From: Cloacibacillus porcorum
Lineage (GTDB): Bacteria > Synergistota > Synergistia > Synergistales > Synergistaceae
NCBI RefSeq assembly: GCF_001701045.1
Contig: NZ_CP016757.1
Span: 3,064,219 to 3,128,218 of the forward strand
Length of the DNA: 64,000 bases
Reading direction: 5' to 3'
In this document: one piece after another, positions 18,713-21,949 of the stretch
Layout of the letters: each line of letters opens with the position of its first letter
Numbering within the stretch: the first letter of the stretch is position 1
Translations under genes and position numbers: made by a program
The notes under the pieces: generated by a model
Told to the model about the DNA's origin: nothing
Databases searched by the model: none
Seen by the model: the letters and a program-made list of their open reading frames with translations, nothing else

Positions 18713-21346
18713 TTACCTCCTGCGTCTCGCCGCCGCGAGCGGCAGCAGCGCCAGCAGTGCTAAGACTCCCACACCCGCGGAGCAGCCGCTGCTTGAACCG
18801 CCGGAGGGTTTCGGCGCCTTTGCCTCGTTCATCGCCATCGCCACGGGGTCGATTACGCTGCCCGTAGTGTTGTCGTAGTCGAACTCTCCGTTATCCTTGA
18901 CGAAGAGTATGAGCGTGTATGTCTCGGTCGGATCGATTTTGTCGGTAAAGGCAAGATTGTTTCCATCCGCGTTTTTGAGCGTGAAGCTCTGGTCGGCGTA
19001 GCCGGCCGGCTCCGCCGTATAGCCGAACTTCGCGCCCGTCTCGTCTTTAAGTATTTTGATGAGCGTGATGTCGCTGACTATATTGTTGGCCGCCGCGCCA
19101 AGCTGCGCGCCGGTCGTCTTCATCGCGAGGGCCGCGACTTTACCGCTGTCGATCGTCGCCGTGATAATGGGCAGAGTTACGATCGTCTTCGGAGCCACCG
19201 CCGCGTCGTCCGACATTACGGAGGCCACGGTCTTCTTGGCGATCACGGGGTCGACTGTGATATTGCCGTCGGCCGTCGCGGTGAAGAATTTTACCGGAAC
19301 GTCCGCGCTCGCCGCGAGGGCTTTTGTGTTTTCCTCCGTCGCCGGCTTGATGACGGGGGTCGCCGGTTTCACATCTGCCGGTACGTCTTTGTCCTTAGTC
19401 ACGGGGTTATCCTTTTCAGTTATGACGGTCGGCGTTACGGGAGCCGGCGTCGGCACCGGGTCCGGAGCCGCCGGGTCTTCGACAGTCACGGTGCAGCCGG
19501 CGGTCGTCTTTGTGACGGAGCCGGTGGCGGAGATAACGGCGATGCCGGCCTTGTGTGCCGTCACCTTGCCTGCGTCATCGACCGCAGCAACCGCAGTGTC
19601 ACTGGATTTCCAGGAGACAGTTTCACCGACGACAGGTGTCGCCGCCTTCACGGTATCGCTCTTTCCGAGTTGAAGTTTCAAAGCAGTTGGCGTTACGGCG
19701 ATAGGGGCATTCTTACATGTGACGACTAGTTCCGTCTTCGCCTCGTTGAATGCGGCGGAGACTATGCCCGTGGCTTCGCTGTAGTCAACCGTAACATCCT
19801 GCTCTACCGCTTTCGTGAAGGTGAGAGCCGAAGGCGTTCCGAGATTCGTCCAGTTGCCCGTCAGTTTGATGACCGTCGCCCCGCCGAGGTCCGCAAGTTT
19901 CAGCTTCGTGCCGCTGGTAAGCTCGATACGGTCCATCTCCACTATCGTCGCGCCGGAGAAGTCCGCCTGGACGTTGTCGAATACGAGGACGGAGTCGCCG
20001 GAGACGGAGTCGGTGTAATCTATGGTATCGGCGGCAATTATCTTGTCATAAATGGCACCGGTTGTACTTGTGCTATTGACGCCCTGTCCCGTTATCGTTC
20101 CCTTAAAAACACCATCTTTGATATCGGAGAAGATCACCGTGGCGTTTCCGTATACGGCGGCGCTGGCGTCATTGTTACGTTTGCCGCCGGCGATTATCCA
20201 GACATCCTCTGTCAGCGCCTTCAGGCCGCTGTTACCTTTGACTGTGATCCTCGCATCGCCTTCGACGTCCGCCTTACCTCCAACACGTCCCAGACCGCCG
20301 CCGACCAACGTATCAATGCCGCGGCCGCCATTAACCACAACAGAGGTGCTGCCCTTGACGACGGCGCTGCCGCCACCCCGGCTGACACCGCCGCCGCCGA
20401 GGTAGGGGCTGAAGGAACTGAAGTCAGCGCTTGTGACCTCTATGTAGACGTCCTTCGAAACGACAGCATTGGCATTGCTCCCCCAGTTCGAAGGGCCGGC
20501 TGTAGCTGCGCCGATTTTCCCCTGCCGCAGATATACCTCTACGCTTCCGGTCTCCGCGTAAGTGTGACCGCTGTTTGCCACTGAGTTGTTGCCGCCCCAT
20601 ATCTGCTCGACCCGCGCGTTTGGATTATCGATTATCAGCGTGGCCTTGCCCTTTAAGATACCGCTGGCAGTTTCGCCGTTTTCAAATCCATTGGCGACTA
20701 TATGCAGGCCGCCGTTGGCGCCAAAGCTGTCGTCATCCGCGCAGGAGACATTGATTTCCACAGTGCTGTCGCCCTCAACGGTAAGGTCGCCTGATTTGTC
20801 TATCATCGCCGCGCCGCTGGCTTTCAGGTATCTAGATTTTCCCCAGAGTGCTCCGTTGATCGTCAGTTTGGTATTTCCCTTAACGGCGCCGCCGTTCGGG
20901 CTGCCCGCCAGGATTATCGACTGCTGATAGTTTGGTATACCACCATCCGCGTAAAGGCTTGAACCGTCGGCGGCGTTGACCGTCAGGCTGGAATCGCCGG
21001 AAACATTCCCACCGTCGCCGCCGGCGAAGAACTGCACTTTATTTTGGGTCCACAGATTCGCCCGCCAATCCACGGTAAGCGAAGAATCCCCCGTGACGTC
21101 GCCGCTCGCTCCATAGATAAAAATTTCCTTGTTAGATAACGCAGACTCTTCGCCCTCTGTTCCCGTAAAGGTGATCGTGTTGCTTCCGTTCGCAGAGGGG
21201 GACAAGACACTGCCGGATTCTATACTACCCAATTCTATTCTGTCGCCGCTATCATAGGATACACCGGCCGCCCACGCCGTTCCCAACATCGCGGCGGCCG
21301 CCACAAACGCTAACACCAGCTTGCATTTTCCCTGCAACTTTATCAT
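18713..21346 (-). CDS. Large SYNERG-CTERM surface protein with Ig-like (Big_2) domain
   Basis: 877 residues. Signal peptide at 1-26 (ending AWA). Residues ~30-460 carry repeated GDSSLTV/VSGDSSLTVN/KGNTKLTIN-type beta-strand units, like autotransporter or pectin-lyase beta-helix passengers. A bacterial Ig-like group 2 domain occupies about 550-640 (VSWKSSDTAVAAVDDAGKVTAHKAG), followed by a Pro-rich linker (PDPVPTPAPVTP) and a beta-rich region. The C-terminus is SSSGCSAGVGVLALLAL plus a basic tail, the SYNERG-CTERM sorting signal of Synergistota, implying cleavage and surface attachment. It is likely an adhesin or matrix protein. Its leader carries a c-di-GMP riboswitch and a variable promoter. 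Confidence 0.85.
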   Translation of the reverse strand: MIKLQGKCKLVLAFVAAAAMLGTAWAAGVSYDSGDRIELGSIESGSVLSPSANGSNTITFTGTEGEESALSNKEIFIYGASGDVTGDSSLTVDWRANLWTQNKVQFFAGGDGGNVSGDSSLTVNAADGSSLYADGGIPNYQQSIILAGSPNGGAVKGNTKLTINGALWGKSRYLKASGAAMIDKSGDLTVEGDSTVEINVSCADDDSFGANGGLHIVANGFENGETASGILKGKATLIIDNPNARVEQIWGGNNSVANSGHTYAETGSVEVYLRQGKIGAATAGPSNWGSNANAVVSKDVYIEVTSADFSSFSPYLGGGGVSRGGGSAVVKGSTSVVVNGGRGIDTLVGGGLGRVGGKADVEGDARITVKGNSGLKALTEDVWIIAGGKRNNDASAAVYGNATVIFSDIKDGVFKGTITGQGVNSTSTTGAIYDKIIAADTIDYTDSVSGDSVLVFDNVQADFSGATIVEMDRIELTSGTKLKLADLGGATVIKLTGNWTNLGTPSALTFTKAVEQDVTVDYSEATGIVSAAFNEAKTELVVTCKNAPIAVTPTALKLQLGKSDTVKAATPVVGETVSWKSSDTAVAAVDDAGKVTAHKAGIAVISATGSVTKTTAGCTVTVEDPAAPDPVPTPAPVTPTVITEKDNPVTKDKDVPADVKPATPVIKPATEENTKALAASADVPVKFFTATADGNITVDPVIAKKTVASVMSDDAAVAPKTIVTLPIITATIDSGKVAALAMKTTGAQLGAAANNIVSDITLIKILKDETGAKFGYTAEPAGYADQSFTLKNADGNNLAFTDKIDPTETYTLILFVKDNGEFDYDNTTGSVIDPVAMAMNEAKAPKPSGGSSSGCSAGVGVLALLALLPLAAARRRR

Positions 21347-21584
21347 TCAGCACACCAGACCTTTCACCCCAAATAAAAATAATAAAAAAATAACCTCACG
21401 CAATAAGAGTATCTTCCATTTTTGTGGTTTTATAGATCACTCTCCCATCCAATTTCCAGCCCCAGACCAACGCGCGTTCGCACAGATACAGAGGATATGA
21501 AGATCCCCTTCGCAGCTCTTTATATTGCGTCTTACTCAGTTCATTGACAGGCCAGCCGCCGAATAGGCGGATATGAATGAATGC

Positions 21585-21660
21585 GGTAATCGGCGACCGG
21601 CTGTCATAACTTTCGTCTTAGACCCTTAGCTTTCCGGCGCTGTCTTTCGACAGCTGTGGC
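21585..21660 (-). promoter_or_regulatory. c-di-GMP-I (GEMM) riboswitch aptamer
   Basis: On the minus strand the RNA shows the class I c-di-GMP order: a hairpin GCTGTC-GAAA-GACAGC (21639-21654) whose GAAA tetraloop matches the tertiary-contact loop, then GCCGGAAAGCTAAGGGTCTAA (split as GCCGGAAAGC and TAAGGGTCTAA), a short GAAA-capped stem, and ATGACAGCC-GGTCGCCG. This parallels the class consensus of (A)CGCAAAGC, GGGTCTAA, ATGGCAGCC and GGGTTGCC. It begins about 20 bases after the predicted transcription start and lies about 240 bases upstream of the surface protein start. A hairpin CCGCC-TATTC-GGCGG follows (near 21557-21571), possibly part of the expression platform. Confidence 0.8.
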
Positions 21661-21687
21661 TTTTTTATAACGATTAACATTGAATGA

Positions 21688-21715
21688 ATTTTACATCACC
21701 CCCCCCCCAAGTCAA
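21688..21715 (-). promoter_or_regulatory. Promoter with ten-G tract in the spacer (likely phase-variable)
   Basis: The minus strand reads TTGACT (21715-21710), a 16-base spacer T-G10-TGATG, then TAAAAT (21693-21688). The G10 run (C run at 21699-21708 on the plus strand) therefore sits exactly between the -35 and -10 boxes. Gain of one G would give the optimal 17-base spacing; loss would give 15. Transcription would begin near 21681, just ahead of the riboswitch. Confidence 0.75.
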
Positions 21716-21822: not shown

Positions 21823-21949
21823 AAATCGGCGTTTATAAGCACGATTTGCGTCATAAAATGGGGGCTCCGAATCCTCACCGTATGAAGATACGGTTCCGGT
21901 ATCGGAGCCCCCATTTTATTTAGCAACTCGCACTTCTAAACGCCGATTT
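21823..21949. repeat. Large palindromic repeat, family A copy 2
   Basis: Outer arms AAATCGGCGTTTA/TAAACGCCGATTT match copy 1. The inner perfect 18-bp stem (21853-21870 with 21902-21919, ATAAAATGGGGGCTCCGA) and the tip CCGTAT-GAAG-ATACGG are unrelated in sequence to the inner stems of copies 1 and 3. It lies between the surface-protein promoter and copy 3. Confidence 0.85.

Follow-up and report, generated by a model that had tools for sequence, protein, structure and literature searches.

A probable phase-variable promoter with a G10 spacer ahead of a c-di-GMP-I riboswitch and a surface-protein gene in Cloacibacillus porcorum

In a 64-kb stretch of the Cloacibacillus porcorum genome (hereafter the window), a run of ten G residues fills most of the spacer between the −35 and −10 hexamers of a promoter-like element that stands just upstream of a c-di-GMP-I riboswitch and of a gene for an 877-residue Synerg-CTERM protein. 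We consider it probable that the element is a sigma-70-type promoter subject to phase variation in the manner of porA, fetA and opc, stacked on c-di-GMP-I control in the leader, and that the gene is one of many tract-controlled surface genes. The G10 promoter and the similar G/C runs at the starts of many surface genes in the same genome together make it probable that expression is switched at random by slippage and then tuned by c-di-GMP.

On the minus strand, which carries all features of this locus described here, positions 21715..21688 read TTGACT-TGGGGGGGGGGTGATG-TAAAAT. The −35 hexamer TTGACT (21710..21715) and the −10 hexamer TAAAAT (21688..21693) flank a 16-base spacer, T-G10-TGATG (21694..21709), a length near the 17 nt of porA/opc-type promoters; a homopolymer of at least 8 bases, the G10 run (21699..21708), a putative slipped-strand tract, lies wholly within that spacer. 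An earlier note on this DNA had described this same arrangement of two boxes and a 16-base spacer made mostly of G10, and the sequence and a promoter scan bear it out: the pair matches the consensus at 10 of 12 positions and ranks first among promoter-like sites over the 1.5 kb that the scan covered. No other G/C run in the 64-kb window reaches 7 bases. From the position of the promoter, transcription is predicted to start at 21680..21682, ~7 nt past the −10 box. A strong inverted repeat, ATAAAATGGGGGCTCCGA ... TCGGAGCCCCCATTTTAT (window 21853-21919), lies between the upstream gene and the G10 promoter and is probably a bidirectional terminator.

The −10 box ends 18 nt ahead of a full-length c-di-GMP-I riboswitch aptamer (21589..21670), which scores 66 bits against RF01051, where the cut-off is 35. 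In the leader between aptamer and start codon (21347..21588), a fold and terminator search found no significant fold, no intrinsic-terminator match and no anti-terminator, and hence no recognizable expression platform. The gene that follows (18713..21346, from ORF and domain searches) encodes a predicted secreted surface protein of 877 aa with a signal peptide, a mostly beta-strand passenger, a Big_2 domain (aa 548-619, 19490..19705; domain and fold search) and a Synerg-CTERM sorting signal (aa 851-877, 18716..18796; TIGR04564, 35.8 bits versus a cut-off of 22.5). The AlphaFold model renders the passenger as mostly beta-strand with moderate confidence, and a fold search of the protein returned no significant match beyond the Big_2 domain. 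The signal peptide and the sorting signal suggest that the protein is displayed on the surface; with the RF01051 and TIGR04564 matches, they uphold the anatomy of G-tract spacer, c-di-GMP riboswitch and surface-protein gene that the earlier note had proposed. Two more c-di-GMP-I riboswitches, one of them degenerate, precede tandem serpin-like genes at 376 and 378 kb of the same genome, and their promoters contain no tract.

In the mechanism that we infer, replication slippage in the tract of an active promoter would change the −35/−10 spacing among members of a population, to 15 with G9, 16 with G10, 17 with G11 and 18 with G12, and these differences would lead to unlike transcription rates among the cells of one clone. 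The strength of sigma-70 promoters peaks near a 17-nt spacer; expression should then be best near that length, and with G10, as seen here, the promoter would be set at an intermediate level. Transcripts would reach the c-di-GMP-I aptamer ~10 nt after their start, and the aptamer would adjust expression of the Synerg-CTERM protein in response to c-di-GMP, so that one gene would be subject both to a random setting of its promoter and to control by a signal in its leader.

A paralogue at 3033 kb carries the promoter TTGACA-C-G9-TGATG-TAAAAT, with a spacer of 15. The same c-di-GMP aptamer and the gene of a related protein come next. The promoter thus exists in two copies that are one G apart (G9 versus G10). 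Identity to the window copy is 25/27 in the promoter, 57/59 in the stretch after it (the early leader) and 28/40 in the 40 bp immediately upstream of the −35 box; ~70 bp farther upstream are also conserved (66/71). An IS element splits the aptamer of the paralogue, whose reading frame also falls into two pieces; this copy is therefore probably non-functional. Copies of an IS3-like element (ends TGCACT...AGTGCA) were seen within ~130 bp of four G/C-tract loci, at 1632.9, 2314.8, 3033.6 and 3251.1 kb, one of them inside the aptamer of this paralogue.

We assessed chance occurrence across the whole genome, a single contig of 3,585,187 bases. A genome-wide excess of long G runs can be rejected: a first-order Markov model predicts ~92 runs of G8 or longer and 25 were observed, so run length alone says little and it is placement that is informative. 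Promoter-like pairs matching at least 10 of 12 consensus positions span 2 of these 25 tracts versus 0.033 expected (both strands), and pairs matching at least 9 of 12 span 3 of 25 versus 0.16; two of the three are paralogous and not independent, so that the nominal P near 5e-4 overstates the case. The third promoter-type tract is a G9 in TTGCCG-17-TAAAAT, upstream of an alpha-2-macroglobulin gene.

Many of the other long tracts belong to Synerg-CTERM genes, for which the genome has 49 candidates, 41 of them above the cut-off. The 5′ regions of these genes contain at least 10 of all 25 G8+ tracts, versus ~0.2 expected (nominal binomial P ~4e-15, with paralogues that are not independent). Most of them lie ~17 codons into the gene, behind a ribosome-binding site and just ahead of the signal peptide, and the open frame past the tract ends in the Synerg-CTERM motif. 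In this assembly the tract genes are in mixed frame states, some in frame and more out of frame, which is the pattern expected of translational phase variation. Such coding poly-C/G tracts, marking candidate translational phase-variable surface genes, were noted at 489, 525, 584, 1194, 1429, 1531, 2839 and 3251 kb; at ~544.4 kb, a G9 stands near the start of a gene, and the 977-aa frame behind it resembles an autotransporter-type protein. The promoter tract is thus only one among several tract positions in Cloacibacillus, and frame-shifting tracts in surface genes are commoner.

We found the tract and the riboswitch combined in another way in a sister species (G001), whose genome is 3.5 Mb. 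It contains two c-di-GMP-I riboswitches; behind each come a short leader ORF that carries a poly-C tract and, next, a Synerg-CTERM gene. One of these genes, found by a separate search of genomes, is the orthologue of the 877-aa protein, to which it is 63% identical across aa 2-624 (E 2.7e-220); a protein-based search of genome contigs for relatives confirmed none. The promoter of the orthologue, TTGACC-17-TAGAAT, has no G tract; the gene can therefore do without one. Its leader consists of the riboswitch, a terminator-like hairpin directly after the aptamer (z −2.36) and the short ORF with C8, and the leader-ORF tract of the second G001 gene is C10. A third homologue, at 2914 kb of the C. porcorum genome, has the same leader type with C7 and an aptamer that we judged by eye to be degenerate. 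With a promoter tract in the window and leader-ORF tracts in G001 and at 2914 kb, a tract and a c-di-GMP riboswitch have been stacked repeatedly, at different stages of expression.

The promoter arrangement itself recurs in another genus of the same family (G020), where TTTACA-G8-CAAATGTG-TAAAAT, with a spacer of 16, lies upstream of a c-di-GMP-I-type riboswitch whose best match is c-di-GMP-I-GGC (64.9 bits, cut-off 59). The next gene (L074 4601-6397, minus strand) encodes a protein with SBP_bac_3 (solute-binding), PAS and GGDEF domains, probably a diguanylate cyclase; G8 promoter, riboswitch and cyclase gene form a possible feedback circuit with a random component. Several G020 genes with a shared N-terminus also carry C9-C12 exactly 51 nt past the start, and wherever the end of a gene in this paralogous set was read it has a Synerg-CTERM-like tail. 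Among 61 genomes, a narrower form of the promoter pattern matched three times (the window, the paralogue and G020), always before a c-di-GMP-I-type riboswitch, and its reversed control matched 0 times. A wider G-tract promoter pattern gave 17 matches in 15 of 188 Synergistota genomes versus 2 matches in 1 genome for the reversed control. Several of the 17 lie 20-60 bp ahead of a start codon. The matches include pairs that look like orthologues but differ in spacing, for example G9 and G8 ahead of a small-peptide gene. Promoters that seem to be orthologous, with G8-G10 in their spacers, were noted elsewhere in Synergistota upstream of a gene for a small cysteine-rich peptide (L080/L081) and of a decarboxylase-like/speE-like pair (L075/L076). 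Outside Synergistota, a search of all genome contigs for the stack of G tract and riboswitch gave 7 pattern matches; we rejected these, as none had a visible −35/−10 pair around the tract.

The G9 paralogue, the G8 promoter of the other genus and the many putatively tract-controlled surface genes of the genome strongly support the reading of the window promoter as phase-variable. Were the promoter real and its spacer G-rich but stable, the tract would be fixed in length in the population and the gene controlled by c-di-GMP only. We think this unlikely, although no length variants occur among the sequences compared, which cover one genome per species, although long G runs are not in genome-wide excess, and although mutS1 is present and intact (878 bits), which means that a general mutator state is not implied. 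Set against these points are the near-identical promoter of the paralogue with its one G fewer, the many C/G tracts in mixed frame states at surface-gene starts of the same genome, and the length of the tract itself, G/C runs of 8-12 being of the classic unstable size.

The tract might instead lie outside the active promoter, as an incidental run or a protein-bound leader element, with transcription beginning elsewhere, farther upstream. The conservation farther upstream that is shared with the paralogue is compatible with this, and the start given above is itself a prediction from the promoter position; nevertheless, no other site in the region resembles a promoter as closely as TTGACT-16-TAAAAT, the runner-up on the minus strand (21940-21913) overlaps the upstream hairpin, and the relatives have a promoter-like pair ahead of the riboswitch, whether with a G tract (G020) or without one (G001), which together make a distant start improbable. 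Long-read assemblies typically go wrong at homopolymers, and the true tract could be shorter, longer or already mixed; an error of one or two bases would, however, leave the arrangement unchanged, and that arrangement is found independently in the paralogue and in the other genus, so that we regard an assembly error in tract length as a highly improbable explanation.

With the phase-variable promoter as the preferred reading, we put forward, at about even confidence, the broader proposal that the surface proteome of Cloacibacillus and related Synergistaceae is phase-variable and that stacks of a slippage tract and a c-di-GMP-I riboswitch on a shared transcript recur in it, at the promoter here, in a leader ORF in the sister species and at a diguanylate cyclase gene in another genus. 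The data suggest that phase variation extends widely among the Synerg-CTERM surface proteins of gut bacteria. If the proposal is true, the locus makes a case for asking how random and signal-dependent switches combine on one gene, and the cyclase of G020 would couple random switching to the level of the second messenger, its random promoter setting feeding back on the very signal that the leader reads.

In the open-access literature we found nothing on phase variation in Cloacibacillus or Synergistetes, nothing on Synerg-CTERM, and no combination of slippage in a promoter with a c-di-GMP riboswitch; the earlier note's statement that no phase-variable promoter had been described in Synergistota therefore holds within that literature. 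To our knowledge, this would be the first phase-variable promoter in Synergistota and the first case of a promoter switched by slippage that is combined with a c-di-GMP riboswitch.

Contingency genes shifted in frame by homopolymers are familiar from Neisseria, Campylobacter and Helicobacter. As in those organisms, C/G runs occur near the beginning of surface-protein genes in C. porcorum and its relatives; unlike those tracts, the G10 tract is non-coding and lies in a promoter. The closer parallel is with porA, fetA and opc of Neisseria meningitidis, where, as one account describes, unstable homopolymers lie between −10 and −35, a long G or C run filling most of the spacer of a surface-protein gene, and changes in length alter spacing and RNA polymerase binding (PMC2791445). 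In contrast to these, the Cloacibacillus promoter, known here from its sequence, belongs to a different phylum and its transcript would open with a c-di-GMP riboswitch; we speak of a porA/opc-like mechanism by likeness of arrangement and do not claim membership of that class. The two-level control that the earlier note had proposed is sound as anatomy and not new in principle, as the Clostridioides difficile flgB leader already places one transcript under both phase variation, through an invertible flagellar switch, and a c-di-GMP-I riboswitch (Cd1) (PMC5386303). In C. difficile the inversion is made by a recombinase, lies downstream of the riboswitch and takes effect after initiation (PMC5386303), whereas in Cloacibacillus the homopolymer lies in the promoter, upstream of the riboswitch, and is expected to act at initiation.
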